DNA of 64,000 nucleotides from Patiria pectinifera (Eukaryota > Echinodermata > Asteroidea > Valvatida > Asterinidae): assembly GCA_029964075.1 (NCBI GenBank), contig CM057137.1, positions 806,001-870,000 of the forward strand, read 5' to 3'. Each line of letters begins with the position of its first letter. Position 1 is the first letter of the stretch. The notes under the pieces were generated by a model. That model saw only the letters and a list, made by a program, of their open reading frames with translations, ran no database searches and was not told the origin of the DNA. The position numbers and the translations under genes were made by a program. Shown here piece after piece: positions 243 to 63,935 of this stretch.

Positions 243-320
243 TCCAACATGCACATGTGTATAACATGTTTTAACGTTCAATGTGAATTATAACGTGCAC
301 TCCTCTTTGGCCCATCTTCA

Positions 321-8791: not shown

Positions 8792-11700
8792 TTACAGTTT
8801 GGTAGCAACTGACGCACGTTGGTCTCTGTCAAATCTGGAATCCCCATCTTCAGAGGTAACATTCTCTGGTGAGCCCCACTTGCCAGCGTCCATTTGTTCA
8901 TACTGAGAGACACGTTTGCCTGGTTGTGCTTTATCCCCTTCAGAAGGACTTTCATTGGTACCATGCTCTGCGGAACCGTCAGTGTCGTTCACTGTGGATC
9001 CACCTGTGCTCTCGTAAATCGGATTCTGTTCCATGGGTGGCAGAGGTTTCATATCCTCGTAGGCAGTGTTGGGATCCTTCCAAAACGGATCGTCGCCGTT
9101 GCTGACGCCGCCTTTCCCCGACGAGAAGGTGGACATCTCGTGGTGCATCGGTCGTTCTTGGTTGACGTACTCGTTCTCGACCACTGGCGGACGAGTCTCG
9201 GAGGCTAAGAGGATGTCTGGCATTTCGGCCTCTGGGTCATCACCGGCATTGAAACCCGAGTTCAGGAGTGTCACGGGGGCTAAGTCGTCCGGCTTCAGAC
9301 TGATGTTTTGGTTTGCGTTCCCGGATCGTTTCCTGAAATGACAAACAAGTAAGGATAAGATTGTAAGTTTCTTCCCGAATCTGAAATGACCACAATCAAT
9401 CCATATCATCAACGTTTCGTGTTGATTCCCAGTGAAGTTTGTGGAAGAATATTCGTGGAATAAACAAAAAGGTATCCACACAATTATCCTGACGAAGGGC
9501 TACGAAGGAGACAGAGGGAACTGGGAAAACACTTGACCAAGTTATTACAATCGATCTGAACTGATGTTTACAGGATAAAAAAGCGGGACTGATAATGTTG
9601 AAACACCACTGTTTAAAACTCCAAAGGGAGAACAAAAATTCGAGAAAACGGTCAATCAAACATTCACTGTGCCAATGCCCTTGACATGTAGTGAAGGCCG
9701 AAATCGTGGGTTAAAAAAAGAAGAAGATGGAGCTCCGTGCGCCGACGAAAGAGGGCGCCCTTTTACCTAGCAACGACGTCTCATGGGCGGGACATTTTGC
9801 TGGTTGACGCGCACCGTTTCTTGTGTGTGACGCACGTACACCACGGGATTTGTACTATGTACACGCAGTGGCCGCGCTTCGCGGCAAATGAGTTGCTGTC
9901 AGGCAAGATGGCGTCGGTCGGTCAACCCCAACTGTACTTCCTTAGCCGGTGAGGGGGTACTTGTGAACGGAGCGGATAGCGTTGAAAGATTTCAACAACT
10001 TATTGGCGTATCTTACCTTAGTTTACAGGTAAGGGCGGCGATCATGATGATCACTAGAAGAAGGAGGAGTCCTGCTGCCCCACCGATGATGTACGGCAGG
10101 TAATCTATTTGGGGGGAAAACACGTAAGGGGTGAAAATCGTACTTCTGCTTTTACCTTCATTGTGTGGTCTTTGCCGCGTGTTTTCAGTAGGCCATAATT
10201 TTGAGCGAACTTTGCAGTTACAATTAAACAGACATGAATCCTGGGTTATTTACGTAAGTTCTAATTTTTTTCTGATGAAAAACAAAATGACATTTTGACA
10301 GTCTTTTGACAATCTTTTTGTAGTAAAGTTTTCACTGTCTCTTCCCACAAATCGTTGGCTCATATGGCTCATTTGAGGTTTCTTATGTTTTTGGTTTTTA
10401 AGGATGTTCAATAATCAGTTTTAATTTCGTGTGTAATTCAAACAGGTTGGGTTTTGGACGAATTTATTTACAACGCACCTGTTATGGATGTTCGGGGCTT
10501 AGTTGGGACAACCTTCACGGTAGTTTTAGGAGTTTCCTGCTTGGTGGTAGGGTCGGGCTTGTTCGTTATATATGAACTGGTAGTTTGCTGATTGACCGTA
10601 GTAACATCTGAACTGGTAGTTTGAGGTTTGGCTGTGGTAACATCTGAACTGGTAGTTTCTGTTAATCGAACAAATAATTCATAAGCATCCTTGCACCTTT
10701 AAAATTTAAAATCTGTTAAAATATTGAAAAAATTTACGATGCGTCTAATTTGCTCTGGGTGCATTTCATCTGTCGCTTTCAAGTATCAGTAAAATGACCA
10801 ATTTTAAATCAAATATAGATGATAAACATCTTGGAAATAAACGTAATAAACACTATTTGATTAAAGGTAAAGTGTTACCTAATAACAGCGTCGTGGATGG
10901 CTTTTCAGTTGTGGGTTCCTCTGTAGTGGTTGCTGATGCTGTTGTGGTTGGCAGTTGAGTTGTGGTAGGCTGTTCAGTTGTGGTTGGCAGTTCAGTTGTG
11001 GGTTCTGTATTATTTAACGAAAATATCAAATTAATCACCTTTTTTTTAACCAGGACAGATAGAAGAATTATTACCAAATCATAAACAAAATGTGTTTCTT
11101 ATTACGTTAAACACTTCTTTTAAAAAATAAAATTTCGATATAATTTTATCTTCTCTCCCCCAAGAAAGATAAGTACCACGAAAGAAAAAAAAGACTTTCA
11201 AAGTCCCCAGCAAGACTCATATTTTTGCTGGTGCCAGAGGGCCAGCCTAGTGTCATCTTTGCACCTCACTGACTCACTGAATGACTGACTGACTCACTGC
11301 CTCTTTGGAACCGGGCAGTGCTATCGTATGGGATGACCCTGTGACACCAAATGGGCTAAATCCGGCCCAATTGGGAAACACAGATGCATGAAACGAAGCT
11401 TCCAGTGAATATGCAATTCGTGAATCTGAATTAATTGAATAGACATTTTGAGCGCTCTGGAACCGCCTTTACTACGTTGTAAAACAAGTTGGGCAAAATG
11501 GGTTGATTATGAATATCGACCAATGTTGGTCGAATTATCAACTGCCTACACTCTTGGGCAAATTCTTCCCAATAGTTTGACAGGTTTGATCCAATTCAAC
11601 CAAATATGAGGTAATTTCATACCAATGCTGGGTAAATTACATTGCCCAACAATGTTTTATCCAACCTTTTAGCAGTGTATTCTTGCCTTGTCTTGTGTAA

Positions 11701-14700
11701 TATCAAATTAAGTAAACAAACTCTTGAGAACAGTGAATATATTCCTACCTGGAAACACGCCCGTATAATTACAGATGGGCAATTTATCTGATGACCACGT
11801 GCGATTGGTGATACACGTCAATGTAGACTCCCCTACCAGCTCGTACCCAGGCTTACATGTGAAAGACAGTGTTTCACCAACTCCGACACCTACATCCGTC
11901 ACTATGGCATTAGGGACCGCTCCAGGGAAGAAACAACCAGGATTCTCCAAGGGCTCTGTGAATAAATCATGTTGATAGTCACACACCATTAAAACTGTAT
12001 ACCGCCCTCTTATGATCATATAGGCCATGCATGCGCTCTAATTCTGCCTGATATTTACCATTTCCAACGGAGGCTCCTCAGACTTTACATAAAATCCGTA
12101 AGATGTTAAGAGGGGGACGTTCAGTTAGTCTCTGCCATAATTCTCTTACCTTCAAATTCATAAAGCTTGATTCGGAATTCTCCGCCACAGGTCTGGCTGT
12201 TATCACCAGTGCAAGGATCTGAGCAGTTCAAAAGCATGTTGTCCAGTTCAAATCCATACACGAATGGTTTCGCGAAGGCACCTCCACAGAAACACTGGTT
12301 GCCACCTTCCAGGCCATAGTATTGGAAGTTTTTCGCTCTGCACAGTGATTGACAAAGTTGGACGGTCATCTCGCCGCTCTCGCAGTATCTTTGCTCTGAT
12401 CCACAGGAGGTCTGACACACGTTTCCCATGTCATCGCATAAGATGAGGTCTGTCAAGACACGGGGTGTCTCCTCACCATCACCATCGAGGTAACAACCCT
12501 TGTAAACGTCATCTGGAACAAAAAATGTTACCAAGTCACAGATGATGTCACTAGGGTCATTGTCTAAGCACGGGTAATGTCACCTAATGTCGCAGATTAT
12601 TTCATAAAGTCACGGATAATAAAGTCACGGATAATGTCACTTGATGTCGCAGATTATTTCATTAAAGGCTGTTGCCAAGTCATGAATAATGTCACCTGAT
12701 GTCCCGTATGTCACCAAGGCTACTGTCAATTGTCACAGATAGTGACATGACGCCCCCGTATGTCAACGAGGCTATTTGTCAAGTCACGGATACCGTCACC
12801 TGATGTTCCCGTGATCCCGTCATGTCACAGATAATGTCACCTGATGTTCCCGTCATGTCACAGATAATGTCACCTGATGTCCCAGTATGTCTCCAAGACT
12901 ATTGTCAAGTCACAGATATTGTCATTTATAATGTCACCTATGTCACCAATAATATCGTTGACTGACACATGAGGGGAAATTAAACTCATGAGAACTTTCT
13001 TTTTGGTCCAAGTCAGATGACTGGTATTTGTTCTGCACATCTCCCACCTCTTAATTTCTAATGTCTTTTCTCATATTTTGTCAAGGGAACCCACTGAAAA
13101 TAATTCGTTATTCTTGTGTGGTATATCTGGTCAAATGCGGATTAAAAGTTTCTCTTCGAAAGATGTTTTCGAAAAGAGGATTATTCGAAACGAGGACTTC
13201 CGTGTGGTGTTAAAGCTTGAAGTGTATGGACTTCAGAAAAGTACATGCGTAATAAAATATAAGAATTATTGTGACCCTGGTCTCGTCACTGGCAAAAATT
13301 AAAGGTCACTTGAACACAATGAAGCTGTGAGTGTTACCAGAGGGCTAGTTGCCCATACGCAAAATGCATTCATCCAAAATGAATATAAAAGTCTGTTGAT
13401 TGTGTTGGCCCAAGTGAACCATGCATTGTCCATTGTGTGTGTATCCGCCATCGTAGGGACAGTCTGTGAAAATACCTTCCCCTAAAATATTATGCAGTTG
13501 TGGAATTCACTTCTTCTTTTTTTTTAAAAACGTATCAATCGTTTAAAAAAAAACTCAGCAATTTCAATTTCTTGTCTTAGCATTCTTATTCGTAAAATGA
13601 ACTGTTGCAAGTTTCAAGGGCTGGGGAGGGGTGGGGAGGGGTAAAATACAAGCGTCCAAAATGAAAATAATTTTACAAATAAGAATATTCAACAGTACAG
13701 TGATTCCGAAAACTAAGCCTGACCAATTCACTTCAACGTTTAAACTAGTGTTTACGACAACTTCACCAAAATCAACCCTATAACGGCAATTTCAAGTGCT
13801 TTTTCTGCGTATTTTTATTCGCTACAGCGAGCACAAATAAGGCACACCTTCGCTCCTCCAATGGAATGACGCGAGCAGCGGGTGACTCATCACCGCGTAC
13901 GGAGGGAGTCCCCTCTAACAAAATACTGCCCCACCTGCTTCATTTCACTGATAATCAGCCGCCGCGCAAAACAATTTTAAAGGCATATAACATTGAACTA
14001 TATTCAGTGAAAAATAGTTTGCCATTGATGGGCTTCTTATATAGCAGCGGATTTTGTGACACTGTAGATTTGTGGGTTTTTTATATATCGTTCATTCTTG
14101 AATGGAGAGCAGGAATCGAGTGTTTGTGATTATATAAATCATTCCCGTATTTTGAAAGAAATATATCTTTCTTTTTTTTGGTTTTCTCAATGTTTGTGAG
14201 TTGTCTGATCGTGGGACACAAAATACATATTTTTCTTTTTCAAAACAAAAAATGAGAACGGTTGTCAGCATGTTATCACCTTTTATAAAATATGTAACCA
14301 TGTCAAAAGGGAAACGTGTTATCGTTGTCAGTTTATTTTGATGCATGCAACTCTCTTTCTATCCAAAAACGCATGGTTTTGCAAACACGTTTCAAGGTAA
14401 GCAATGTTTTGTTAGTTTAGCCAGGTGTGGATCGTTGCTACCCTTCTTCAAATTCCTTTTATTTGTCATTGTCTTGTTCTTACATTCTGTCTCTTGAGTT
14501 TAGGCCTGGCGACTGAAGGTTACAGAATTATAAAGGTGTGATTGCAGTATTCATCGGGAAAAAGTTATGAATCGGACTTGAATATTGAAGCCCCTGAAAA
14601 GCTGCTTGTTCATGGGTCAGTACAGTATTCGATAATTTAAAAAAAAACCGGTGAGAAAGCTACGGCCATTACATGAAGAAGAAATAATCAGTATGAAGTA

Positions 14701-15547
14701 AATGCAATTTTGGAAGCTACTGTAATTCTGGGCATGGTGTAAGCCTGTGGGTGAAAAAAACTCTTGATAAGTTTAGTTTTGGAAGGGAGTCATACAACTT
14801 GGGTTCCATAATTTACTTGCTCTTGAATAAAATTTAATGAACGACATTTACGATGCTTTTAGGAACGAATTTACGAAATGATACAGAAACCCCAATCTTT
14901 CCTTCGCCGTCCCGGCCAATCGAAACTTAATTATGAAAACTTCCGTTTAACGCAACTATTCCATAGGAATCGGAACTTTGTTTTCAGAAGTAAAAAGTGA
15001 AATGCTTCACATGTCCATTGTGTTACAAAACGTGTTGTACCTATTCGGTCAGTCACAACAGTCGTTCAAATCCGCAAATCTGAATGGGGGATCGTTCTAA
15101 ATAAGATAAAAACGATACTAACTTGTTGAAGCATTGACAATTTAAGATTTGAACCCTTAAAATCAGTCATAGTTCAATCTTGGAATTGAAATAATCTTTT
15201 TCTCGATAAAAGACTCGCTCATTAGCCACTAAAAAAAATCCATGATAACACGTTGGACGTTACCAGATTTGTTTAATGAAACTCAATTATGTTTTCAGTT
15301 TTCACCATGTCATTTCATTCTGTAATCTACTTTAATCCTGCACCAGGGTGTGTGTGGTGCAGTAAAATGGCGTTATTTGTTTTAAAAATATTGCTTTTCA
15401 ATCTGTTAGTCCAAAATGAAAAGGCGGAATTACCCACTAAAACCTACATATTAACTTGCACTCACCTGAATTTTGACAAAATCCCAGCGGAAGTAGAAAG
15501 CAAACCACAGCCGCAACCACAACCCTTTTACCAATTCCCCGCTCCAT
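8792..15547 (-). CDS. WSC-sushi-mucin stalk type I membrane protein, gene 3, 7 exons
   Basis: Exons on the minus strand are 15547-15466, 12512-12150, 11955-11749, 11004-10879, 10658-10479, 10104-10017 and 9332-8792. They give 528 residues. The first exon encodes the signal peptide: MERGIGKR, then a hydrophobic run ending GFCQ. Residues 28-148 are a WSC domain with 12 Cys. Residues 149-217 are one four-Cys sushi module, ending PICNYTG as in gene 4. Residues 218-319 are a Thr/Pro-rich stalk with repeats of PTTTE and TTSSDVTT. Residues 320-348 include the membrane helix (YIIGGAAGLLLLLVIIMIAAL). The tail (349-528) has YVNQ (Y404), YEDM (Y440), NPIY (Y455), YEQM (Y493) and a C-terminal ATKL. WSC and sushi modules commonly bind carbohydrate or protein ligands; signalling through SH2, PTB or PDZ partners is inferred. 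It is divergent from gene 4. Confidence 0.9.
11170..11400 (-). repeat. dispersed repeat in gene 3 intron, homologous to 20985-21185
   Basis: Read on the minus strand, this shares ordered blocks with the gene 4 intron: TATGCATCTG-like, CCATACGATAGCACTGCC versus CCTATACGATAGCACTACC, a run of CACTGA/CACTCA units, then CTGGCCCTCTGG. Both copies sit in the intron just after the sushi exon, in sense orientation relative to their gene. Confidence 0.65.
11460..11690. repeat. possible dispersed repeat with inverted ends in gene 3 intron
   Basis: The segment runs from AGTTGGGCAAAA to TTGCCCAACA, with several internal TTGGG/CCCAA words. The ends are roughly inverted. I cannot assign it to a family. Confidence 0.35.
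12541..12960. repeat. minisatellite in intron 1 of gene 3
   Basis: Degenerate tandem copies of a unit with ATGTCACCTGATGT, CCCGTCATGTCACAGATA and close variants. In the best-preserved part (about 12803-12880) the period is 33 bp. The array starts less than 30 bp before the WSC exon in gene direction, so it abuts the splice acceptor region. Confidence 0.85.
12961..15465. other. remainder of gene 3 intron 1
   Basis: AT-rich intronic DNA between the minisatellite and the signal-peptide exon. Several short open frames occur (for example 13078-13302 and 13866-14129), but they have no splice-compatible or homologous structure that I can see. Confidence 0.6.
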
Positions 15548-17855: not shown

Positions 17856-20800
17856 ATGAAGTGGAGAGTGGATGCGCACGTTTTGGTAGCGGTTCTGCTT
17901 TGCTGCTGTTTTCAATCAGGTGTCAGCCAAGACCCAACAGGTAAGATAGAAATGTTCATGTCGTAAAAAGATTAAGACTTTCTACTTTACAGGTGCTTGT
18001 TAATTAAATCATAAATGTTTTTTACATGCAACGTGGAGGATGCTTTTTTTGACATAAAAATGACATGACTTTTCTTTGTGATATATTATTAGGTTGATGT
18101 CATTAAATATCGAAAATATAGGTTTAAATACGTCAGTTTCTCCTTGCTCTTGATTTGGAATATCTTTTTTATTGTTGATAACACACATATTTTATACTGA
18201 TAACAATGAAATTTATGTTTATTTCACTATACTAAAAGTGGCTAAATATTTCTGCAGAATCCATATTTTTAGTTGACGTGACTGCTTTACTTTAATAATT
18301 ATTATATCATTTCTAAATGCATTAGAGCCAGTAATTTACATCATTTTAGTAATAGAAAACTCATGAACAAAATTCGTGATTGTGATTGAATTGTTTTGGT
18401 ATTTTCAGCGTTGTTTTTGACATCCATGTACATGTTGCTTTATAAATTTGTACCTTGAAAATAATGAAGTCCACACCAAAACTATGTTTCCCAGCAATTG
18501 TGGTTGAGTAAAATTAACACCCTCCTGTGACGTGATAAAAAAAAAATTGTGTTAGAATTTTCTCGAGAAAAAAATTGAACCTTTTTTGTCGTGGTTGGCC
18601 TTCAGTGGGGACATCCTTTCAAATGCTGATGACTCAACCTTGGCTCTTACTAAAGATGGAGGTTTAGGCGCACCCACAGCTGTGCTCATCAAACCAAAGC
18701 GATTCAATGTATCTCAGCTTGGTCAATCAAACATGAAATCACATCTAGAATTCCGTTGTTGATGAAGACTTTGGTGAAAACACTTTACTACCGAAACATG
18801 CAATTCAAGGCGACGGAGTGCTTCGCCATAAAAAAAAGGAATAAATATATTTATCAACTGATTACAGTTAAACTTATACAATGAAAGTCTCTTCGTTTTC
18901 CATTCCTCAGGGCTGTGGAATGTTGACCTATTTGAATTTCAAAAGTCTAGCCTTTCAATTCTTGCAGACTATTATGGGAAAACTGATTGAATTTTTGTAT
19001 AGGACTAAGCTGCATAGGCACGCAGGTCTGTGTAAATGTAAAACACTGATCAACAATGCATTGGTACAAAATGTCAACTAATTCCACAGCGATCATAGTG
19101 ACCAACATGTTTTGACAGAATTAATTAGGAGCACATATAGGGTCACGTTAAATTAATAGTGCATCTAAGGCCTCTATACCCAACTATACGTTTTCACGGA
19201 AGGTGGAAGTTAATGGTAAAACTTTCACTCTTTGACACCAAAAGCTATTTACAGGCCAGGATTATGAATATCAAAGCAAATACAGTATTTTGTTATCTCC
19301 AACTCAACTCTGATCTTAGTTTCATTTTCGTTTTCAGTTTTTGAATGACAATGTGCTCCTCAAAAAAGGCAAATTGAGACTGAAACCGCAGTAATGTCAG
19401 GACTTCACACCGTCAAATTCGTTACCTCGGGAATCTAGACAAGTACCCCTTGCGACATCAAAATATTGCAAAAAGAAAATGAGCCAATTGAATTTTTATG
19501 ATCATGTGACAACCAGTTATACTACACTTACAAGATGCATGTCTTAACAAAATTGTTTGTGCTCGTGTTTTCAGATATCAACCATGGCTGTTATTTCGAC
19601 AATAACCAACGGGCATTATCGGACCTGATAACATGTGGTGATACCATCAACGTGTGTCATTCGTCCTGTGGAGAAGAGCAGCGGTATTGCGAAAGTATGG
19701 ATATGATGACTATCAACCTCTGCCGGGATCTTTGTAGGTGGAGAAACCTTCAATATTACGCCTTGGAGGCAGGACAACAGTGCTTCTGTGGGGGCGCCCT
19801 CTCGGACCCGTTCCAGCATGGAAGTGCTGCAGGCATAGGGAACTGTTCGTTTCCTTGCACCGGAAACAGGAGCCAAACATGCGGTGGAGAGTTTAAGATG
19901 CAAGTCTATGAATTCCAAGGTTTGTAAACCGTTACTCATTTTGAAAATTAATTGCACTTGTGCTTTCAGAATGTTTTGAAAAGAAAATCTACGAGAACTT
20001 GTTTGTTTGGTGGGTGGGTGGGTTCTTTAGGGTTGCTTTTGTCTTTTTCTTTTGGGGTGCTAAACAACCCACAAATGAAACATGTCAAAGGTAGTATTGC
20101 TTTTGCTGTAATTTTTAGAAATGGACGGATTTGGGGTTTTGTATTTTGTTGCAAATATTGTTATCTGACCTGTTTAAAGTTTTGGGATCTTGGATGCTGG
20201 AAAAACCAAGAAAAAAATATGTTCTTGTAGTCTGGTGTCCTGACCCTACTTCAGACAAACCAGAGTAATATATCGACGTCGGGGAATTGTCAGGTCTTTG
20301 TCAATTGTTATTAGCTTGCACCCGTTTACGGATGTGTACCCGATTGCAAACAAAATGTGGACTAACTAAATTTGGTAAACTGGGTGCACTATTTTTTTTT
20401 AAAGCAGATTTTTCCCCAATGATAGTCAGCTGACCATTGTTGGAAATTTTTGTTTGTATGTACCCTATATCGAAGCCACTTGGCTTACATTGGAAGTTTC
20501 TTTTAAGATGGAGCGACATGATCGTATATCATACACTACTCCTCTATAAATTAACTTTTATAACAGTCAAACATCTCATATTTCTTCATTCACAGATCCT
20601 GTTCCAGGATCAGACTGCTTCCATCCTGGCTTTGTCAGGAACTCCTTTATATCGTACGTTGACGCTCTAACAGCTGGAGTAACACTCAGTTACCTCTGCC
20701 TGCCATTGCACCGAATTATTGGCGACGCACAAGTCACATGTCAGCCTGATAGAAGCTGGCAGCCCAACATGCTCCCAATCTGCAACTACACAGGCGTCAT

Positions 20801-23800
20801 AGAAGGTAAGCACATTAGAATAGCAAACACGTGGAAAAGAAAGAAAAGGATCAGACAAGCCAAGTAAACTGGTCCGGGACCAGTCTAAGAAACAAGTGCC
20901 AGCAAGTGAAATTGGTACAAAGAGGACACCAGACCGTACAGGGCGTACACAATTTTATTCAATTGATTTAGAATGGTTATTTGTTGCAAGGTTTCTTATG
21001 CATCTGGGCTACACAGTGGGCCACATTAAGGGTTACCCTATACGATAGCACTACCAGGTTCTCATTGTCAGCCTACAGCCAAGCAGTCCAAGCCACGAGT
21101 GACACTCAGTCACTCACTCACTTGGTTTTTTTGTGCAAGAAGCGGCATTAGACTGGCCCTCTGGGGGACCAGCAGCAATTGCATCCCCTGTCTCTGCTCT
21201 GCATGGAACAGTTAGCAACAAACCTGGGTTGATTGGAAGGCATCTTAGTGGCAGGTCATGGGTTCGATTCCCTGCTTTCTTAAAAACAAAAATCCGATAT
21301 AAAATCGATGACTCCTCAGAAGCCCCCATGGCACTGTAGCTCGCAAACCTATGGGAACTTGTAGAGAGAAGACATTATGGAAATGTTACGCTTTAGAGGT
21401 TGAAAACCTCAGGAAAATAATTTCTTCAAGTTGGGTAACCTGTGGAAAACAGGTAGGGAATAAGACACCCCCAACTACCTGAGCAGGATTCGAACCCTCT
21501 GGAGCAAGATCATGAAGTTTTAGGCTCCCGAAAAAAACACCAAGATATGATATTAAGCTTCTTAAGAATTAAAAATGTTGATGATCAAACAGCGTTACAT
21601 TTCCAAGTAACATGAACGGAACTGCCCCATGAAATTTTCCCACATATTGGATTCTTATAATAAGGTATTTACGTGTATTTTCTCTTTGCACTTCCAGAAC
21701 CCACTACAGAATCTGTAACGACGATGCAAAACCCGACCACTATTCAAACAACAACAGCAGCAAAGCCGCTTACGGGGACCATTACCGGTAAGATTACAAA
21801 TCTGAGAAGTCATAATCTATATAATAAAATCTTTTCCTTTGGCACAGCTCCATTTTAGCACCTTTTAGTCTTTTCTTTGTCGGTGTGTTTGTTCACATTA
21901 CTTAGTTTAATTTGTTTAAGTTTCTCTATACCGCAGTTCTGGCAAACTAATACATTGTAGTTTGGCTGTAAGTGTGATTTGTATTTGTAAATACAATGTA
22001 CGATACTTTTGTAAAACTCACTCTAAGGAATCATAATTGTGGGCTACTGTAAATGCCCTCTGACAACCAGCAGCCCTGGGAGGGTTGCCATTTAATGTCG
22101 TAATTAAGGTCTAATGGTATGACCACCTGATCATCAAACATGTGCTTGATCACGTGGCATGTCAATACCTTTTACATGTAGGGCCCCTACATGTTTTTTG
22201 GGGGGCATTACTTTCGCGCCTTTTTTGTTGTGGCAGGCCAAAGTTCACTGTACACTGACATAGATGTTTGCAATCACTATATAGTTTCTTGTAGAACCCA
22301 GTTTTTGTGAAGGAGTTTTAGCCGTTTGCCTTCCTTATCTGGCAACATTACATTGGTGATTCTTTCCACTTGTGACTTTGAAATCCGATATTGAATGATT
22401 TCATTCCTAAATGCAATAAAAACAAAGTTTTTCTTTTCTTAAGTTATAATTGACTATGAACTATATTTCATAATCCAGGAAACAATTACCAGAATTAATT
22501 AATAAGGGAAAATGACTATAGGTGCATGCATAAAAGTTGTTAAGTTGAACGAAGCGACTGACTGAGCTGGATTTTCACTATCGTCCAACTTCATATATGA
22601 TTTGAACTATAAGTGTATTCTTGATTTGTATTTTACAGGAGGTTATTTAAGAGACACTGTTTTCTAATTTCCATAAAAATTGTTTTCCTCATTAGATTTT
22701 CTGCCTTACATTATCGGTGGCTCGGCGCTACTTCTCCTAATCCTGGTGGTGTGTTTGGTCGGAATATTTGTCTGTGGAAGGAGGTAAGGAGACCTTAATA
22801 ATGTAGCAATTAAATTGCCTAAAACCTGGAAATATGTTTATCTTAATTTAACAAGAAAAGGTGCGTAACAATTCCGCTTTAAAACTCCCTACTTAGTTTT
22901 ACTAAGTACAGGACCAAGTCCGTCAAAATCCATCACAGACTCTGCTTCACATAGTGCCAAATCCGTTGAAATCCACCACTTGTATAATTTTGATGGACTT
23001 GGTACATAATGGCTTATCTTCCAAAAAAACCAAAAGAGGGGGCGAATTTTGATGTAGTTGGGAAGGTTAGAACTAATGAAAATCATTGTGCAAAACCGAA
23101 GCCTCCTAAGTGTCCTGTTCTCCCCTAATAAGTCTAAATTAATTTCGATAATATAATGTGGTATAACCAGAAGGAAGCCTATTGACTTTCTTACTGTCAA
23201 TAAACTATAAGTATCAATATATTCTTAGTAAAGGTGCCGAATAATTATATTTAATCAATATTTTGTGTGAAAGAATACGGAAGTGTTGGTGAAAAAATGC
23301 ATTTGGTAATACTGTGTGGAGTGTGTTACTCGCTCAGACATGCATAAACTATTCGAACGAGCCTTTACTTTCACCTGACTCCTTTACAAAAACGATTTTT
23401 TTTTTTCCCGATGCAAGAATGAAAGGAACTTTTGTGTGATCCAAAATAGAGAACGCTCGATTTCAAATGAACCCACAGAGTAAATATTTTCCAAGGCTGT
23501 GATATTTTCAGCTTTTGTTGGAAGTTTCTTTGAGGGTTTTTCGCTCCACTGCGGGTCCGCTCTGACGGATGAGATCCAAAATGCATTGCGACCTGCGCGG
23601 TCTTTGTGCAAAGTAACTGGTTGTCCACAGAAATTGACCTGTTGAAGTTTCAAAAGAAAATCGACAAAAAATGTGGGAAAAAATGAGTATATGAAAAAGG
23701 ACAGTCTACAAGGAAGCATAAATGAAATATAAAATTCCATCCTCATAATAATAAGAGAGATTTGAATGCATAAACCACATGTGTTTTTAACAGCGGACTT

Positions 23801-24930
23801 TCCTGGGCAAAATAATGCCCAATGTCACGAACGTGAAAAGAGAGAAATTGTCTTAGGAAGAAGAAAAAAGGAGAATGCATTTCAATTGTTACATCTTTAA
23901 AAATCATCCCAAAATCGTGTTTATATAGGCAAAATTTGGGTCAAAATATGTGTAGTACATTTGAGACATTTAGAATTACAAATTTGCCCAAAAAAGGTGA
24001 AATTCGAAAAAAAGAAATCGGCCCCATTTTTTATCGTGTCTTTTTGAAGCTCTGCCCATAAGTGTCTGGTTTGACAGAGTTTGAAGTCCAATCTTTGCTC
24101 AGTTATGGTAAATTTTTGTTTCATTCTGCAAAATATGGTCCATTGAGTTTTGTGGTTAATAGTTTACTTCTTGATTCGTTTTTGGTAGGAGGAGGTCAGG
24201 AAATGCTGGGCAAGACATCTCACTGAAGCCCGAGCCAGCCCCTGTGACTTTCCTCAACACCGGCTTTCATGCTGGGGACGACGCAGATGCCAAAGTTGAA
24301 ATGCCGGACATCCTCTCCAACTCCGCCAATGGCAAATCATCCTCCCCACCTCCAGCCAACGTCTACAACTCCCGAATGTCTACCTTCTCAGAGGAACCCA
24401 TCTATCTGAATGGTGAGGCAGCTCATGTTTCCGTGTACGGACACGTGAATGAGACTGAACCTCAGTCACCTGATGACCCACCGAGCCCCATCTACCTCAA
24501 TGCGGAGGCAGCTTTACCGGACAATGAACAATCTCCCTCGATGGATACACCTGATGGGAACACCGGGTACACCAAGCGGTACTCCGCCACGACAGACCGG
24601 CCCCAACCCAAGCGGGGTGTGTCATCTGAAGACCCTGGTGCCGCGTACGCCACCGGTAACCGCCGGGCTAAGAAGAACGGCACAGGCACCAAAGATCTGG
24701 TCGGATGGAGCCGCCCGAGCTCCCTGTACCAGCGCACGGAATTTGACGATGAAGATGACGGTGATTCTAACGAGGACAACACGACTGTTGAACCGAATGC
24801 CCTCTCCGCAGCTATCTACGCCCAGATCGACAAAAGTCGGAAGAGTGACTCGAGAGAAACTCTCAATTCTGAGGTTTCCGGAAACTCCTTCTTCGCTGAC
24901 CCTGCCAAATCATCCGCTACAAGACTTTAG
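17856..24930 (+). CDS. WSC-sushi-mucin stalk type I membrane protein, gene 4, 6 exons
   Basis: Exons are 17856-17940, 19575-19919, 20596-20805, 21698-21787, 22696-22783 and 24189-24930. They give 519 residues. Exon 1 encodes a signal peptide (MKWRVDAHVLVAVLLCCCF) and ends in phase 1. Residues 29-143 are a 12-Cys WSC domain. Residues 144-213 are a four-Cys sushi module, 214-243 a short Thr stalk, and 244-272 include the membrane helix (IIGGSALLLLILVVCLVGIF). The tail (273-519) begins with basic RRRSGN, followed by a block shared with gene 3 (LNTGFHAGDD and EMPDIL). It holds YLN twice (Y345, Y375; the YxN form bound by Grb2-type SH2 domains), SVYGHV (Y356, ITIM-like), NTGY (Y400) and a C-terminal ATRL (class I PDZ-like). 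Gene 3 is its closest relative in the window. A ligand is not evident. Confidence 0.93.
17941..19574. other. intron 1 of gene 4
   Basis: AT-rich intron of 1.6 kb, phase 1. No further exon or recognisable repeat seen. Confidence 0.6.
20085..20455 (+). repeat. dispersed repeat, copy A (gene 4 intron 2)
   Basis: Matches 45930-46170 in the same orientation. Shared blocks include GCTTTTGCTGTAATTTT, AGAAATGGACGGATTT, GCAAATATTGTTA, GTCTGGT, CCTGACCC and TTTTCCCCAA. Family unknown. Confidence 0.7.
20960..21530 (+). repeat. composite SINE-like repeats in gene 4 intron 3
   Basis: The first part (20985-21185) matches the gene 3 intron repeat. It is followed by tRNA-like B-box words: GGTTCGATTCC near 21262 on the plus strand and GGTTCGAATCC read from the minus strand near 21490-21500. 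This suggests nested or fused tRNA-derived elements. Confidence 0.55.
21788..22695. other. gene 4 intron before the membrane exon
   Basis: No exon or element recognised in this 0.9-kb intron. Confidence 0.5.
22784..24188. other. gene 4 intron before the cytoplasmic exon
   Basis: A 1.4-kb phase 2 intron. Short open frames (for example 23371-23746, minus strand) are AT-driven and not supported as genes. Confidence 0.5.
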
Positions 24931-26132: not shown

Positions 26133-26138
26133 AATAAA
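26133..26138 (+). terminator. candidate polyadenylation signal, gene 4
   Basis: AATAAA about 1.2 kb past the stop codon, at the end of an AT-rich stretch typical of a 3' UTR. Confidence 0.45.
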
Positions 26139-26598
26139 CATTTTCATTTATGAAAATTGAATACATGACTATTGTTATTCGTGTATACAATGATTTTAAC
26201 CGCATGAATTAATCTGTTTTGGACATCATAATGTCTTTGCAAGGCCTTTAAATCTTCGTTATATAAACGGTAAACCATGAACGCGAACGGAATCGAAGTC
26301 ACGCAAATGGAAAGATTGCCTCATCTTCGAAACCAATTTTGTTTTCCCAAACATCAGGACCAGCCATTTTTAATCAGTATCTGACAGGCAAATAAAAAAT
26401 GCCCCACCCAAAGAGTGTCGTCTTTCAATGGACTGATTTGCATAATTTAATTAACTTGACACCTGTTGCCTTTTGACAAATATAGCACGCGCATCATATA
26501 TACAGACTATGATAGGCATACCCAGTGATTAAAACTGAGAGACAACGCCTACCTTACAAACTTCACGTTTGGCTGCAACATCTGTTTCCAGCAAATAG

Positions 26599-42798: not shown

Positions 42799-42804
42799 AA
42801 TAAA
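42799..42804 (+). terminator. candidate polyadenylation signal, gene 5
   Basis: AATAAA about 545 nt past the stop codon of gene 5. Confidence 0.45.
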
Positions 42805-54243: not shown

Positions 54244-57200
54244 ATGGAAAGACACTGTAAAGCGGCGATTCTGTATGTCCTCATTTTGCTCTATGTGTCA
54301 GGTGAGTTCCGTGCTCTCTCTACTATAATTTAATAGGTCGTTCATGACCAATTATCATGGCAAAAAAAAACACTTGAAAAGAACATGCAAAGTCTCGAAG
54401 TGCTTAGCACAATCTTAGCTTGTCGTTAACTGTGTTTATTAATGGAGACAGTTTTTTTTGTCTTGTCATTGATGAAGACTCTTCTTTTTTTTTCATAAAT
54501 GCAAGACGATTTGATTTCTGTGACAGAGGTTTTATCCTTCTGCTGATTCCATTTGCTTCTTGCAACATTTACTTATTCAACGTAACTCCCTACAAATGAT
54601 GGTGGGTCAACATAGCTTACATTTCTCATCCTGGAGCCGGTTTTTTTTTAATGTTACAACGTAGAGTTACTATATAATATTGTTAGGTCCTTTAACCTTA
54701 ACCCTATCGATACCCTAACGTAAAGTAAACGTAGTACTCTAACCCCAAACTAGACCAAGATCATGATTACTTTCTTATTACTTCTCTCTCTTTCTCATCC
54801 AGTGGTTTCTTCGTCTTGTCCTCCTCCTCCCAAGCAATTGGGCACTAACTGCTCGGATGAAACCATCGTCAACTTCCAGGTCAACTACAAAATTACTTGT
54901 AGCTGTATGTTCGGATTTAATCCGGTGGGCGACCTCACGAGAACGTGTACTGAGAATGGCACTTGGACGGGAAGTGACGACATTTGTCGCATTGGTGAGA
55001 ATTACCCCGATTGCTGGCCTTTCTAGCCTTTCTAATATTTAAAGGAATACAGGGTGATTTGCATTTGTCCCAAAAGTAACATAGACCCAGTTATTTTTAG
55101 AAAGCTTCTTGGATTAAAGATGGTACTGGTGCATGCTATACTCCCCGTGAAATTATTCTGTCTGGGTTGCTAATCATTTAAAAGAATTGGGCAATTCCAC
55201 ACGAGAAAGTGGACATGGCATGGCATGAAGAATGAACCGGACATTACAGTTTCCTTCAATCGTTTTGTATAAAATGAAATGAGAAGAATCAAAATCCTTT
55301 GACAAAAAGTTAAACAAATGTCCTTGAAAATCAAAATATCAAAATATCTTCAAAATGCCGCTCATGGATGGTGGCCAAACAATTTTTACCCAAACAGGAA
55401 TAATTTAATCATTAAAAAAAGCTTGAGAGTTGTCATTCTCATAAAGTCAGTCATCATGCTTTGCTTTTATGTTTCCCCATCATCATTTTGAAATATTACT
55501 TGTATTTCCCACGCAAGATATGAGCAATGTTTCGCTTCTTTTTTTTTTAACAAACCCGCATATTTGTCACTTATTCAGTGACTCAACAGTGTAGCAATTG
55601 TGTTTCTATGTTGTCCTTCCCCTAAGGCTCCGCGGGAAAAGCAAATTGTCCATTGTTAGGGGAATTCCAACACGTACCGTGTCCCAGGCCGATGCAACTC
55701 AATAACAGTTTGAAAACGGCAGTCGAGCTGGTTCCAAATTGGGGTAGGCTATATCTGGTGATCGAAAACAGAATAAAGGATGTCCTAGTTCTCCCAGCCA
55801 TGATCGCCAGTGGTTCAGCTTCCTTTCCCGTAACTATTTCTGAGTGTTAAACATGAATGTCCTTCTTTCAAACCGATAAACTGTTTCCTTCTACAATAAT
55901 ATTTAAAGTAAAAATAATGCCTGTAAATGTACCCTATCAGGAGAAATTATATCGTCATAAGTTAGGCTAAACCTTATGGGATGAGAAGTTAGATTAAGGA
56001 GACATTGAAATGTCTCTCTAATGTCACAACTCCCATTTAGAGGCATAATTTTACCGTCGCAAATAGGCTGCATCGACTCGTGATCCATTACATAAATGAA
56101 CCAAAGTTCGTGGGGGTAGGATATAAGGTAAAACGAGGGTAATGGGGGTCATGAAATTTGAAAATGTTTGTGCACAATTCTATGGGAATATCTCACTAAG
56201 GGACCATCCTCCGTAATAGTAATAACCTTTTTGTAGATTGAAATGAAGAACGTTCAGATATGCAGACGAGCGGTGCCTGCAAAGTTCTGGGGTTTTAGAG
56301 TCAACCAAGATGTTTCAGGAAATGGAAAATGCTAAACTGAGTTAATTTTTAACTCTCCCACAGCCACAGGTGCTTTTCAGTATCTAATGAAATACCCTTA
56401 TATTCAAAATATCCGCATTCCATTGTACATGTATATAGCAAATATCAATACAAACACCAAGAATATTCAGAACAATGAAGGTAGTCTTGTATATCGCACA
56501 ATCACTGGATGCCCTTCGATCTCTGAATGGTAAATCCGGAGGCCATGAATGGCTTGTTTTTCACTTTAGCGAAGTGAAACCGAGGTTATTTGTACAAAAT
56601 TCATATCCGTGAAAATGGCACCAAAAATCAGTGTCCTCGATAACTCCGCATGGCGCCTCATTTCCCGCACGCGTGACCAAAGAATAATGAGATACGACGG
56701 GTCGGGATTATTTTTAAAGCAAAACACAATTCTACTTATTCTTGGGGGTAATTTCTAACTTTTCCAATTGTTTTGGTATAGTTTCAAAAATTGCATGCAT
56801 TTTTTTTTGTCTTCATGCGTAGATGCTGTCTCTGTTGCTCTGGCGTGTTTTGCAGGTTTGGCAGCCATCTTGATTTTCACAACCTTATCGTGTTGTTTGA
56901 TTTCCAGGTAAGTGAGTTAGAAAAAAAGGAGACACTGATCAGCAGCTTTCTCTTAAACGTTGAGGGTTGAAGTAATCCAAACAGTGATGCATGAATCTTT
57001 GCGCTTACACTTCGTTTACCCATAATTAAGGGTGTGCAAGTTTTAAGCTCAATTTTGGAGGGGAAAAACATTATTCACGTCGTGACTTTCAATAGGCATT
57101 AATAGGAGCTTTAACAATGATGTTTAGTTAATTTTGGGGTGTTTTTTGGAGGGGTGGATACAAACAAACGATGCCCAAGGCAGGCATGCAACTGGGAAAT

Positions 57201-58468
57201 CACTAAAAAGAGGAAATTCAAATGTTTCCCAGACTTTGTACAGTGTTTTTGTATTTTCAATGACACACCTGGGAAGTAAAAAAAAAAAAGAGGAAATCAG
57301 CTGATCTGAGGAAAAGTTGCATGCCTGCCAAGTTTATTGGTGTAAGTGTATAGGTTGCTAAAATCCAAATTGCATCGTAACAATCTTTATGTTTTTAGAT
57401 TGAAGTAGACTTCTTTTTATGTTGCTTCCATTAACTTACACGTCTAATTTGGGTACCCAGAAAAATGGCGTCGTACGCCCTCATTCGATCAAAGTTACTA
57501 ACCCATGTGGTCTCTCCAAAACTGACACTAGATTTTGACCTACGTGAATTTTAGGAGTCGGGTTAGCGCAGTGGTTACTTTCCTCGCCTTCAACCGCTAT
57601 GGCCCGGGTTCGATACCTGCCCGGACTACATATGGATTGGGTTTTCATAGGGATTGGGCCCTACCTGATTCCGTGGGTTTTAACCAGAATATTTTTTTTT
57701 GGGGGGGGGGGGGTTTCCCATCTCTAAAACTACAATTTTTTCTCATTGTCTGCTCTCTACATATGCCTTCAGGCTTTTGAGCTACCGTGCTTAGGACAAT
57801 TTTGAGGAATGCTTGGTTTCATTACCAGAAAGAAATCAAATAAAATATAATAAACTGGAAAGCACTCAGAGAGCACAAACCTCCGCAAAGGCTAACAATT
57901 CCCCGCCATAATGTCAGTACACCCAAAAGAAATACTCGCATAAATTGTGAAGAATACTTTTAAAACAAATCCTGGATCCAGACCCAGATCCGGATCACTT
58001 CCAAAATCTAATCGGTTTGTGCTTGTATACCAAGGACCACCCCTACAAAAATGTTGATGCAAATCCGTCCATAACTTTTTGAGTTATCTTGTCAACAGAC
58101 AAACCAACCAACCAACAAACAAACAAACAAAATCCGATGAAGTCATAACCTCCTTGGCGGAGGTAATTAACGTATCTGTTTTAACCACCTTCCTTGGCAG
58201 AGACCGGCGCAGGAGACGCCGGGCAGAACGCCGTCTGACCATCCAACGACGAGATGAAGAGGCAGCTAACGCTGGGTTAAACGGCCCAGCCCAGCAGGAA
58301 CCTGACCACTATACCAGGACTCAATCGACTAAAGAGCGAAGTGACTCGGGACTCCAGACCGACATGGATATGGAAGACATCGACTTCAATGATTTCAGCA
58401 TGGAGGTGGATAGTCCTACTGATAACAATCCACCAGAGGGCCTAAACCTTGATTTTATTGACGAATAA
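54244..58468 (+). CDS. short sushi-TM type I membrane protein with polybasic/acidic tail, gene 7, 4 exons
   Basis: Exons are 54244-54301, 54803-54994, 56823-56907 and 58201-58468. They give 200 residues. Exon 1 encodes a signal peptide (MERHCKAAILYVLILLYVSG). Residues 20-83 hold one sushi module (CPPPPK, ITCSCMFGFNP, RTC, GTWTGSDDIC) with two extra Cys. Residues 84-111 carry the membrane helix (VALACFAGLAAILIFTTL). The tail (112-200) starts with a strong basic run, RDRRRRRRAERR. It ends in an acidic, aromatic stretch with DMEDIDFNDFSMEVD and LNLDFIDE. There is no WSC domain, no mucin stalk and no T-x-L terminus, unlike genes 3-6. The membrane exon is 85 nt, the same as in gene 8. Phases (1, 1, 1, 2) follow the cluster template. 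Function is unknown; the tail could bind acidic lipids or act as a released nuclear fragment. Confidence 0.87.
54995..56822. other. intron 2 of gene 7
   Basis: Holds a phase-compatible open frame at 55627-55850 after a pyrimidine-rich acceptor, discussed as a possible alternative last exon. Otherwise no element recognised. Confidence 0.45.
57552..57845 (+). repeat. tRNA-derived SINE in gene 7 intron 3
   Basis: It contains an A box TTAGCGCAGTGG at 57563-57574 and a B box GGTTCGATACC at 57607-57617, spaced as in RNA polymerase III promoters. The body matches the copy at the window start. A poly-T/poly-G run interrupts it near 57690-57713. Confidence 0.85.
57879..58164. repeat. dispersed repeat with ACCTCCGC terminal inverted ends
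   Basis: Left end ACCTCCGCAAAGG and right end CCTTGGCGGAGGT are inverted with one mismatch in 13. The inner part includes GTCCATAACTTTTTGAGTTA and an (AAAC)n/(AACC)n run. The right end stops about 36 bp before the acceptor of gene 7's last exon. Confidence 0.75.
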
Positions 58469-61455: not shown

Positions 61456-63935
61456 ATGTCTTTTTCCTTCTTGCAACGTAGACATTTTGGAGTCCTTTTG
61501 CAAACTGTTATATGGGCGCAAATCTATGGAATCATTACGGGTAAGAATGTAGCTGAAAGTTTTATACTGACACTAATTATAGGTGCCAAGCAAAAAATAT
61601 TGCTTAACAATTTTAGGTATTAAGCACTAATCAGCTGAGAACCTGTGACAGGCAATATACATGACACTGAATGTTAGCTGGTAACCTGTTTTTGCTAAGC
61701 GAATATTTTCTGTGCTTAACAAATTTCTGTGCCAACTAACTCCATGGAATTAACCCATATTATGAAAAACACAGACTATAAATGGTCCACTTTGACAACT
61801 AAAAGTAAAAGTTCACATCAGCGACAAGTTTAAGTTAAAGCTCTTCGTTTTGTTCAAGGTTGTCCGAATGTTTTCGACATCTCTGAAACATCTTTGACAG
61901 TTTAGTTTTTAAAACAATTCACACACCTCCCGATGTGGTTTGCTTTCGTTGTGCTGAAAGAACACATACCTTCTTGTGATCCGTGGACAGAACTTTAAAA
62001 CGGTGGTTGTGTTTAAAATTCCGCAACTTGGAAAGTACGTACATGAGTGACTTGAATGATTCTTGTACTAAAAGAAAGCTTATGAATTGGGCTATCATAT
62101 CCTAGATTTAGAAAGTGCTACATGCAGAACTTCAGTGAAACAATGGTCCCGACATTAGGATTTCGGTGTTTTTTTTACTCAACCTGTATTCAAATTATAG
62201 GTTTTCCCTTCACCGTCGTTTAAACACTGTATACTCAGTGTGTTACCTTCTGAGTGAAAGTTGGGGAAAAATCACTCGGGTGGGACTCAAACCCACGACT
62301 TCTGCTTGCTAGTGCAGATGTCTTACCACTTGACCACTTTGGTAAGACATCTGCACTAGAAAGCAGGAGGTCGTGGGTTTGAGTCCCACCCGAGTGATTT
62401 TTTTTCCAACTTTCACTCAGAAGGTAACACACTGAGTATACAGTGTTTAAACGTCGGTGAAGGGCAAAACCTATAATTTGATTTATCACCCCGACGCAAA
62501 AATTCCATCTTACAATCACCCTGTATTGTATATTTGTTTTGACAGCGCAATCAGGGGATGAATGCCCCGAGTTCACGTGCCGTACTCCCTCCTCCTCGTT
62601 CACAACAAGACTGAGCGGGGATGAGACATGTTACCGATACGGCAAGGCGCTCACGGTAGACTGCCAGATTGGGTTCCAGCGGAGGGGGCAAGACGATGCT
62701 ACCTTTATCGTCGTGTGCAATCTGGATGGCACGTGGACGTGGTCGGATTCCTGCGTGATAGGTAAGACTTCTTTTCGCGGTTTCATCCCCACAAAAAAAT
62801 AGGAGCTTCCAGTCTGCTTCAATGAATAATTTAAAATTCGTTCCCTAATGTTAAAAGCCAGATTTTTTTTACAAAAAAATTACAGTCAATAAGGCTGCAT
62901 TGTGCTTGCATAAATAGTCTGGCGCCATCTTAACAGTTAACACTTAATGAAATACATTCAGGGAACTCGACAAAAATGGCCAACTCGTGAATAAGGCCCA
63001 TTACATGGATGTGTGTGCACTCGTGACACTTTTGCCTGAAATTTCAGGTGTCAACAAAATACACATGTATGGTGCCGATATGTTTTATAATTTGAGGGGA
63101 AAAAACTGAAATCATGCATTTGCAAAAAGGTAATACATATTACAGGGATGAAAGTGGATTCAAGACATTTTTGCCTGAAATTTGAGGGATAAAGAAAATA
63201 CACACACATGTATGGTGCCGATATGTTATTTATTATTTGAGGGGGAACCAACTGAAATCAGGCAATTGCAGGAGATACATCCCTGATATGAATATTTACT
63301 GTCCACTGTACTTATCCATATTCACGGATTCGTAACATTTTCTTAAAAAAAGAAAGAGTTTGAAAAGGGAAAAGAGAGTCTCCTAACGTCAAATGAGGCC
63401 CAACGTCCCCCTCCAGCTTTTCTAATTAGCAGGTCGGTCGGTCGGTCGGTCGGTCGATCGGGCGGGCGGGCGGTCAGCCAGCTCCTTCTAACTTTTGCCC
63501 CCCGAAAATTTGCTTTTGGAACTGCCGGTGTGAAATTTGGACTCGACGAAATACGGACTCATTAGTTGCATTGTGCATTCCCAACTGAAGATAATTAGGA
63601 CAGTTGCAGGTCACATGAGAGGTTCGAGTCCAAACTTGCAGCAGAGACCAGATTGCATAGGAGTCCAAGTTTTCATATGGCACCAGTGTTAATAGTTTGT
63701 CTTTTGAACTAACTGCACAACATGTCCCGACTTAGGTTTATACTGTTCAAAATTGCTTAAAAGTATGACAGTTTACAAGAGTAACGTGGTTTTGAGCCAT
63801 TATAAATTGCATTTACTTTATCTGCAGTGTGTGGACTTTTTTTATTTCAGACATTTTCTCCGTCATCATCGCGTGTTTAGTATCATTCGTCTCTCTCGCC
63901 ATCTTCTTCGTGATCATGTACTGCATTCTCACAAG
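61456..63935 (+). CDS. sushi-TM type I membrane protein, gene 8, partial (continues past window end)
   Basis: Exons seen are 61456-61540, 62546-62761 and 63851-63935; the cytoplasmic exon must lie beyond base 64000. Exon 1 encodes a plausible signal peptide (VLLQTVIWAQIYGIITG) after a basic N region. Residues 29-100 hold one sushi-like module with six Cys (ECPEFTC, ETC, VDC, VVC, then GTWTWSDSC). The membrane exon encodes DIFSVIIACLVSFVSLAIFF and ends in phase 2, as in every other cluster member. Its 85-nt length and the D..SV..AC pattern match gene 7, so genes 7 and 8 are probably sisters. Intron 1 carries a long palindrome with a tRNA-like core. Without the tail, signalling type cannot be judged. 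Confidence 0.83.
61965..62190 (+). repeat. dispersed repeat, copy in gene 8 intron 1
   Basis: Homologous to 30455-30620, with an extra 70 bp or so before the TTTTTTTTACTCA block. It runs directly into the palindrome that follows. Confidence 0.75.
62191..62480. repeat. 290-bp palindrome with tRNA-like core in gene 8 intron 1
   Basis: Arms 62191-62327 and 62341-62480 are near-perfect reverse complements around a 13-nt centre. Each arm contains a B-box word (GGTTTGAGTCC at 62376-62386 on plus; its complement near 62290). Read on minus, the left arm plus centre also has an A-box-like TGGTCAAGTGG. It looks like two head-to-head copies of a tRNA-derived element. Confidence 0.9.
62762..63850. other. 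intron 2 of gene 8
   Basis: Contains an imperfect local duplication (GTGTCAACAAAATACACATG near 63049 versus a related block near 63190, both followed by TATGGTGCCGATATGTT) and a (GGTC)n/(GGGC)n microsatellite at about 63431-63472. No exon seen. Confidence 0.6.

Follow-up and report, generated by a model that had tools for sequence, protein, structure and literature searches.

The 64,000-nucleotide window analysed here, positions 806001-870000 of CM057137.1 (C9 below) in the 613.5-Mb Patiria pectinifera assembly, carries six neighbouring genes that we label A to F. Gene A lies on the minus strand and runs to the left; genes B to F lie on the plus strand and run to the right. We rebuilt their exon chains from AG/GT borders, phase agreement and the absence of internal stops, and all six chains have such borders, no internal stop and matching phases at every junction. 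The first-pass annotation had proposed that the six genes use one exon template with the same phases, and the rebuilt chains confirm it: a signal exon leaving in phase 1 is followed by modules that enter and leave in phase 1 (1-1), a membrane exon that enters in phase 1 and leaves in phase 2 (1 to 2) and one tail exon, which for gene F lies beyond the window. There are seven exons in A, six in B, 13 in C, ten in D, four in E and three in F. The modules are also as proposed, with both the WSC and the sushi domains recognised by Pfam: WSC plus sushi in A and B, WSC plus two sushi units in C, a stalk only in D, and sushi only in E and F.

Three protein searches for orthologs, which reach only word-sharing relatives (one of them up to a limit of 7994 scored candidates), supplied the starfish protein models P0001 to P0011, and these were aligned exon by exon to A to E. 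P0001 was assigned to A, P0002 and P0003 to B, P0005 to P0007 to C, P0009 and P0010 to D, and P0008 and P0011 to E. The match covers B, C and E whole (B to P0002, C to P0005, E to P0008 and P0011; Patiria miniata or Acanthaster planci models), A from WSC to tail, and D in its signal, membrane and tail exons. The joined exons are supported for A to E by annotated proteins, with the exception of the A signal exon and the weakly matching D stalk. The A. planci orthologs (LOC110978649, LOC110978642, LOC110978773, LOC110978675 and LOC110980746) and the P. miniata orthologs LOC119729251 (B), LOC119729249 (C) and LOC119729248 (E) resemble the window genes in exons and tails, but they are gene predictions named merely 'uncharacterized' ('E-selectin-like' for P0004), and their listings give no family grouping. 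For A to E, the A. planci proteins are all listed on a 4,565,964-base contig; for B, C and E, those of P. miniata are listed, like P0004, on a 42,407,541-base contig, equal length being read in each case as one and the same contig.

Gene A begins with a signal exon at 15466..15547 (ATG; GT donor of 8.2 bits; phase 1 out), for which P0001 gives no support because its N-terminus differs (1/13 aligned residues). A WSC exon with 12 cysteines (12150..12512; 1-1; Pfam 1.2e-12; 85/119 residues identical to A. planci P0001) and a sushi exon (11749..11955; 1-1; Pfam 2.5e-10; 54/69) follow. Two 1-1 mucin stalk exons (10879..11004 and 10479..10658) and the membrane exon (10017..10104; 1 to 2) were placed by the phase-consistent chain. 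The tail exon (8792..9332) encodes YVNQ, YEDM and YEQM and ends in -ATKL, as does P0001. When the motifs of each tail were counted against 1000 shuffles of that tail, the A tail had two YxxM (p 0.006) and one NPxY (p 0.027), and all four of its tyrosines are kept in A. planci despite a tail that is only 46% identical.

Gene B consists of a signal exon (17856..17940; 25/28 to P0002), a WSC exon (19575..19919; 1-1; Pfam 1.5e-12), a sushi exon (20596..20805; 1-1; Pfam 3.5e-4) whose 21.4 bits are marginal against a cut-off of 20.7, a mucin exon placed by the phase-consistent chain (21698..21787; 1-1), a membrane exon (22696..22783; 1 to 2) and a tail exon (24189..24930). The tail carries YLNG, YLNA, SVYGHV and YAQI, ends in -ATRL and is identical to P. 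miniata P0002 (LOC119729251) at 239/247 residues, with eight of nine tyrosines kept. SVYGHV, a site resembling an immunoreceptor tyrosine-based inhibitory motif (ITIM), corresponds to TTYANV in Acanthaster; the match is within chance (p 0.27).

Gene C is the longest chain. Its signal exon (29023..29098) matches P0005 at 24/25 residues, its WSC exon (36246..36599; 1-1; Pfam 6.4e-13) at 108/118, and its double sushi exon (37327..37689; 1-1; Pfam 1.8e-10) at 116/121; both sushi units lie in this one exon, and the second is unrecognised by Pfam. The stalk exons within 38152..39948 (38152-38232, 38572-38616 and 39898-39948) follow the ortholog P0005, and with them stand four tandem 39-nt microexons (38752-38790, 38959-38997, 39180-39218 and 39360-39398), which show tandem DNA similarity and are all present in P. 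miniata P0005. The last stalk exon (40430..40534; 32/35), the membrane exon (41223..41319; 1 to 2; 31/32) and the tail exon (41843..42254; 131/137 to P0005, LOC119729249) complete the chain. The tail ends in ESYVEVVTKL, of which the final -VTKL is kept in P0005, P0006 and P0007, and three of its nine tyrosines are kept across four species. An ortholog in Asterias amurensis, 52% identical over WSC plus sushi, places the origin of gene C before the split of these starfish lineages, Asterias being a forcipulatid.

Gene D is a headless stalk with no sushi match to PF00084. Its signal exon (44714..44798; 20/28 to P0010) may start at 44657, as the Acanthaster ortholog suggests. The seven stalk exons, all 1-1 (46875-46991, 47239-47304, 47482-47547, 47845-47910, 48041-48106, 48365-48406 and 48638-48781), are 27-57% identical to P0010. 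The membrane exon (49464..49545; 1 to 2) matches A. planci P0010 (LOC110978675) at 20/27 residues, and the tail exon (50140..50356), ending in -LTPL, at 58/72, with all three tyrosines kept. Stalk exons 47845 and 48041 sit in a tandem DNA duplicate; such tandem duplication of tiny stalk exons with flanking intron was seen at 38739-39426 in C and at 47799-48137 in D. In both genes the stalk length differs between species.

Genes E and F are short. E has a signal exon (54244..54301; 17/19 to P. miniata P0008, LOC119729248), a sushi exon (54803..54994; 1-1; Pfam 2.7e-8; 60/64), a membrane exon (56823..56907; 1 to 2; 28/28) and a tail exon with an arginine-rich start (58201..58468; 85/89). F has a signal exon from a phase-consistent model (61456..61540), a sushi exon (62546..62761; 1-1; Pfam 2.4e-6) and a membrane exon (63851..63935; 1 to 2) like that of E. 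Its tail was not found in the downstream sequence searched, and no ortholog was matched with the F sushi inside a composite protein query. F-like sushi-type exons continue downstream on the plus strand at no fewer than four places (C9:876139, 879828, 883800 and 889231), one of the four passing the Pfam sushi cut-off, together with phase 1 to 2 membrane exons at C9:880522-880612 and C9:884742-884832. A sushi-only side branch formed by E, F and these copies is the best explanation. In the intron just before the F sushi exon lies a palindrome (62190-62481; 92% over about 290 bp) that encloses a tRNA-like match (62279-62337), probably a tRNA-derived repeat.

The heads of A to C are well supported. 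Their WSC exons score 48.0-49.2 bits against the curated Pfam cut-off of 27.8 bits (PF01822), and sushi (PF00084, cut-off 20.7 bits) is above threshold in A, B, C (first unit), E and F. The WSC domain of the A-C family has 12 cysteines in ten out of ten aligned sequences, orthologs included: eight core cysteines, their positions judged by eye from excerpts of PMC9024836, and four extra ones in an insertion before the helix. Among solved structures, KREMEN1 matches it best (E 4.2e-10 over the top-scoring stretch). An AlphaFold model of the domain was poor (predicted local distance difference test, pLDDT, 52), and its top five Foldseek matches, KREMEN and Wsc1, were non-significant (E 0.09-0.37). 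Neither the tested A-F exons nor 10 orthologs contained a kringle, CUB or SRCR domain by Pfam, which likewise gave no kinase match in the A, B, D and E tails or in P0005, the ortholog of C; the tail exons run to the stop codon. Stalks are 29-45% serine plus threonine in A to D. Exon structure and orthologs thus identify A to D as conserved starfish type I receptors with a predicted head (A to C), a serine/threonine-rich stalk and one span.

The tails are less uniform than had been thought. A tyrosine-rich tail had been named as a common feature, and this fits only gene C, with tyrosine contents of 2.2% in A, 3.6% in B, 6.6% in C, 4.2% in D and 1.1% in E. What A to D have in common is the C-terminus: they end in ATKL, ATRL, VTKL and LTPL, which resemble class-I PDZ ligands ([S/T]-x-[V/I/L]). 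This kind of end is kept in all eight A-D orthologs counted (P0001-P0003, P0005-P0007, P0009 and P0010; P0004 was not counted) and in A to D exceeds shuffles at p 0.011-0.042 per tail. E ends in FIDE, and neither E nor its orthologs have a PDZ-ligand-like end.

The phase pattern, considered at first as proof of common descent, was dropped because 1-1 extracellular modules are generic and widespread among animals; similarity of the membrane segment was used in its place, expressed as z over shuffles. The membrane and juxtamembrane segments link A, B, C and D mutually (z 3.6-31.6) and E to F (z 5.4), with no link between A-D and E-F (z at most 0.7). The membrane segments therefore split the cluster into two neighbouring groups, and of the proposed single family of six, A to D stand as one family; E and F stand apart, linked through sushi likeness only. 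Their sushi exons are similar to those in A and C (z 3.3-6.9), and less so to that in B (z 0.7-2.1); this may mean no more than a shared type of domain. Of the tails, only those of A and B can be aligned with each other.

Upstream of the window we examined C9 from 563 to 806 kb and found four receptor tyrosine kinase genes, G1 to G4, lying 170-205 kb from the cluster. G1 (about 638-630 kb, minus strand) forms one phase-consistent chain from WSC to kinase end, with signal, WSC, sushi, mucin, membrane and complete kinase parts; its full WSC and sushi exons are 1-1, the chain finder having shortened these two as well as the HRD-DFG exon of G4. The G1 WSC domain scores 46.1 bits, and the kinase motifs GRGDFGEV, AIK, EEF, HRDLAARN and DFG are present. 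G2 (627-619 kb, minus) has a gene-B-like head and is 89-97% identical to G1 in DNA over most of its length. G3 (612-607 kb, minus) has a stalk, a span with a GC donor and a kinase, with no head identified, and G4 (about 600-605 kb, plus) has a weak SRCR-like exon. The joined kinase pieces match Pfam PK_Tyr_Ser-Thr at 2.7e-85 (G1) and 3.2e-80 (G3); close solved relatives are TIE2, RET and FGFR1 (the top row, EGFR, has no single passing stretch and is not interpreted). Signal, ectodomain, span and kinase thus occur in one chain in G1 and in part in G3.

A genome-wide WSC search, giving 72 exon matches, placed the C9 matches at 626 and 637 kb as gene-B-like heads, and here the exchange of extracellular modules becomes visible in the DNA. 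A block of gene B at 19560..21927 (plus strand), comprising exons 2-4, the sushi-mucin intron and flanks, is shared with G1 and G2 at 87-92% by blastn, in three pieces each (87% for the WSC exon). Its right edge lies 140 bp past the mucin exon, in the mucin-membrane intron. The sushi-mucin intron differs by 7.5-8.4%, and the WSC-sushi intron of B aligns to G1/G2 only at its edges. The signal, membrane and tail exons of B have no DNA match in G1/G2 by blastn; the signal peptides are weakly alike as protein (50-58%). A near-identical head therefore stands on different inner ends in B and in G1 (and G2, possibly damaged), about 190 kb apart. The exon shuffling claimed earlier for the extracellular modules is thus real. 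Because the B architecture also occurs in A. planci (P0003), the simplest order is that B came first and the kinases gained the head later, as we infer from sequence comparison.

A second joining may be represented by P. miniata P0004. Its residues 25-292 match gene C (WSC 110/118, double sushi 118/121, first stalk exon 21/27), and residues 294-366 match the G3 stalk and membrane exons at C9:612147-611497 (89% and 71% at 612.1 and 611.5 kb). P0004 and P0005 differ at 12 sites in WSC, so P0004 is a separate copy; it is a gene prediction, and so a weaker case than the joining of B and G1. The WSC search and inspection of the locus found no WSC exon at G3 in the P. pectinifera genome. Upstream of G3, an open stretch lies at C9:613435-613879 (minus), where the P. 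miniata counterpart P0004 has its WSC-double-sushi head; a secreted repeat domain suspected there by eye had no Pfam match above cut-off and was discarded. An open frame at C9:616311-616358 (minus) resembles the G1/G2 signal exon and is possibly G3's own. Before G4, an SRCR-like exon at C9:599322-599504 (plus; Pfam 2.5e-4, below cut-off) suggests other head types on these kinases.

With the G1 N-lobe exon as query (E <= 0.001; 150 scored of 163 candidates), we found 139 genome matches, almost every one free of stops and most of them densely clustered, on C3, C20, C19, C17, C14, C4 and C21, with four on C9. Judged from these exons, there is a very large expansion of kinase receptors in this starfish genome. 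When these were set against the 72 WSC places, a WSC exon preceded the N-lobe exon on its own strand, at a distance of about 3 kb, in just two of the 139, G1 and G2 (36 places were compared directly and the rest by inspection of coordinates). No WSC match falls on C3, C4 or C21, and the remaining N-lobe places on C20 are >2 Mb from its only WSC.

The head of gene B differs from its P. miniata counterpart more than the tail does. Relative to P. miniata, WSC differs at 26/115 sites and the tail at 8/247 (Fisher 2e-8), with the pooled stalk at 11/174 (p 1e-4 versus WSC); relative to A. planci there is no such contrast (32/114 versus 65/232, p 1.0). The WSC cysteines are kept in B, P0002 and P0003. 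The changes cluster in two loops (17/45 versus 9/70, p 0.003, with loop borders set after the data were seen). The same clustering is not significant in the gene C WSC (p 0.37), and B and C share 6/11 variable columns (p 0.017). Among B, G1 and G2, the ratio of non-synonymous to synonymous divergence (dN/dS) in WSC is 0.94-1.12 (Fisher p 1.0), with dS 0.10-0.11 and dN 0.095-0.119 for B versus G1/G2. For sushi it is 0.50-0.56 for B versus G1/G2 and 2.64 for G1-G2 (9 versus 1 changes, p 0.69), and the 28 aligned codons of the mucin exon are unchanged, indels aside. The P. miniata B WSC differs from G1 at 11/115 sites and from window B at 26/113, with 56% tree support for the G1 pairing. Exchange or sorting among copies would thus explain much of the difference, and WSC heads have probably been exchanged or sorted in this way. 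Taking the hypervariable WSC of B as proof of positive selection was dropped, given the closeness of the P. miniata WSC to G1 and a dN/dS of about 1.

Elsewhere in the window, a divergent pair of major facilitator superfamily transporters (Pfam MFS_1; 82-93% DNA identity) lies beside the cluster at 306-2701 (minus) and 4252-6507 (plus). A 214-bp palindrome occupies 43343-43556, and two tandem repeats with two copies each, 154 and 165 bp long and 95-97% alike, occupy 26595-26889 and 33385-33729; all three are intergenic or intronic.

The earlier suggestion of a lineage-specific sensing or immune-type receptor cluster is partly supported, and a sensing or immune-type cluster stays the best reading of these genes. 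More specifically, we favour, at a little under even confidence, a cluster of recognition receptors in which kinase and docking forms trade extracellular cassettes, in the manner of paired receptors. The WSC-sushi head would bind a protein or a glycan, with the mucin stalk holding it clear of the membrane. According to PMC9024836, WSC domains adopt the PAN/Apple fold, a type that binds proteins and carbohydrates, and excerpts of PMC9252488 describe the WSC proteins of fungi as lectins that bind glucan. The kinase form would signal directly, and the docking form (B, A and C) would be phosphorylated in trans by that kinase or by a Src-type kinase. Docking tails might then recruit SH2 proteins, A through its YxxM sites, A and B through YxN and C through YxxP, while PDZ scaffolds keep them in place. 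Receptors that share a head, one form with a kinase and the other lacking it, could act as paired receptors, or as a kinase with a docking co-receptor, with D as a headless stalk on the same kind of tail. A bolder version has a starfish-own paired-receptor system in which a small set of WSC-sushi-mucin heads is repeatedly moved by phase-1 exon exchange between PDZ-anchored, kinase-free docking receptors and the receptor tyrosine kinase expansion; the heads would be traded and diversified between copies and species as at a non-self or allo-recognition locus, the P. miniata B head, nearer to that of G1 than to that of window B, serving as the example. We think this version rather unlikely as a whole. 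If cassettes do move in this way, the locus captures a recent case in which docking receptors and receptor tyrosine kinases shuffled domains along with an intron, and the kinase expansion, at 139 matching exons, makes the question of what starfish sense directly testable.

Several observations weigh against the favoured reading. The two AlphaFold models are too weak for use (pLDDT 42 and 52). The tail motifs are short, and counts of YxN, YxxP, ITIM-like and YxxPhi sites lie within those of shuffles; since the C, D and E tails cannot be aligned with A/B or with each other, the docking idea rests on the class of motif. No strong acceptor precedes the G2 membrane exon (the highest combined splice score is -4.0, versus +3.8 in G1), nor was an exon chain assembled for this gene, and G2 may thus be a damaged copy. 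The membrane exons of G1 and G4 run from phase 1 to 0 (that of G3 is uncertain, given its GC donor) and those of A-F from 1 to 2, so that only the upstream phase-1 border is shared. The predicted P0004 model stops soon after the membrane segment, and a WSC dN/dS of about 1, not >1, would fit relaxed constraint as well as diversifying selection.

The alternative that fares best, although we consider it unlikely, is that these are epithelial or matrix-anchoring mucins, whose heads bind matrix or microbial glycans and whose PDZ-like ends only place the protein at junctions, with no signalling. The serine/threonine-rich stalks and PDZ-like ends of A-D would suit such a role, as would the conservation of headless D in Acanthaster; a starfish sushi-domain protein is associated with epithelial junctions (excerpt of PMC13409769), and P. 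miniata has a skeletal protein with SRCR, WSC and sushi domains (PMC5460417). However, the same head on the G1 kinase, with its key motifs intact, fits signalling better, and tail tyrosines are kept in A (4/4) and B (8/9), though in C at just 3/9. Less probable again are decoy or dominant-negative partners, in which the non-kinase receptors bind the ligand of the kinases and damp signalling. The B ectodomain common to G1/G2, the one ITIM-like site in B and the WSC-bearing inhibitory receptor in amphioxus (PMC8211107) would all agree with this; yet a decoy needs no conserved docking tail, and the B tail is nearly unchanged in P. miniata, while the ITIM-like match is no better than chance. It is very doubtful that the genes encode gamete-recognition proteins with heads made fast by sperm-egg coevolution: WSC occurs in the sea urchin egg-jelly receptors SpREJ6, 7 and 10 (excerpt of PMC1934368) and the B WSC outpaces its tail, but copies exchanged or sorted, with the P. 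miniata WSC nearer G1, are a simpler source of that difference. Six unrelated neighbours or mis-spliced models are scarcely credible, for all that 1-1 extracellular exons are common and E-F lack membrane or tail similarity to A-D, given annotated orthologs for A-E, the same-size Acanthaster contig and the membrane-segment links within A-D and between E and F, which already contradict the idea for A-D.

No description of genes A-F turned up in the literature searched, which consisted mostly of top-ranked matches and included no search on starfish receptor kinases; nor did any literature joining the WSC domain and starfish. Compared with known systems, our preferred cluster of recognition receptors shares parts with several. 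Like A-C, KREMEN1/2 have a WSC domain and a single span, but they combine WSC with kringle and CUB, which A-F lack, and the A-C WSC has four extra cysteines before its helix. The A-C WSC also lies in one 1-1 exon, unlike Xenopus kremen 2, which has a phase 0 intron inside the WSC region (excerpt of PMC3927609). Yeast Wsc1-type sensors have the same head-stalk-span-tail plan as A-C, with eight cysteines versus 12; to our knowledge they have no sushi domain and no tyrosine or PDZ-like tail. Their domain is a PAN/Apple fold with a long L5 loop (PMC9024836). The first-pass annotation knew of no named animal family combining WSC, sushi, a mucin stalk and a tyrosine-rich tail; WSC with sushi as such is already reported in echinoderm SRCR proteins: the P. 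miniata skeletal protein PMI_006935 is listed with 'Scavenger Receptor/WSC/Sushi domains' (excerpt of PMC5460417), and 36 WSC domains were counted in sea urchin SRCR proteins (excerpt of PMC10855680). These have WSC and sushi in one protein, as in A-C, together with the SRCR domain that A-C lack. Amphioxus BbLcLRR is an inhibitory type I receptor that combines a WSC domain with ITIM-like tyrosines that are functional (PMC8211107); it differs from A-C in its leucine-rich repeat ectodomain, and the excerpted description mentions no sushi. By analogy, it offers a precedent for a WSC receptor signalling through tyrosines in a deuterostome. On domain content, A-F are not KREMEN and not SRCR proteins, and A-E are not kinases; we claim no immune receptor class for them. 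G1 shares its kinase domain, as does G3, with TIE2, RET and FGFR, and differs from them by its WSC-sushi-mucin ectodomain. In paired immune receptors of the KIR, SIRP and LILR type, ectodomains that duplication or exchange keeps almost identical are attached to different signalling parts. B and G1 would differ from these in their domains and in that one partner is a tyrosine kinase, so that, if the preferred reading is true, an echinoderm receptor system would follow the logic of vertebrate paired receptors with different parts.

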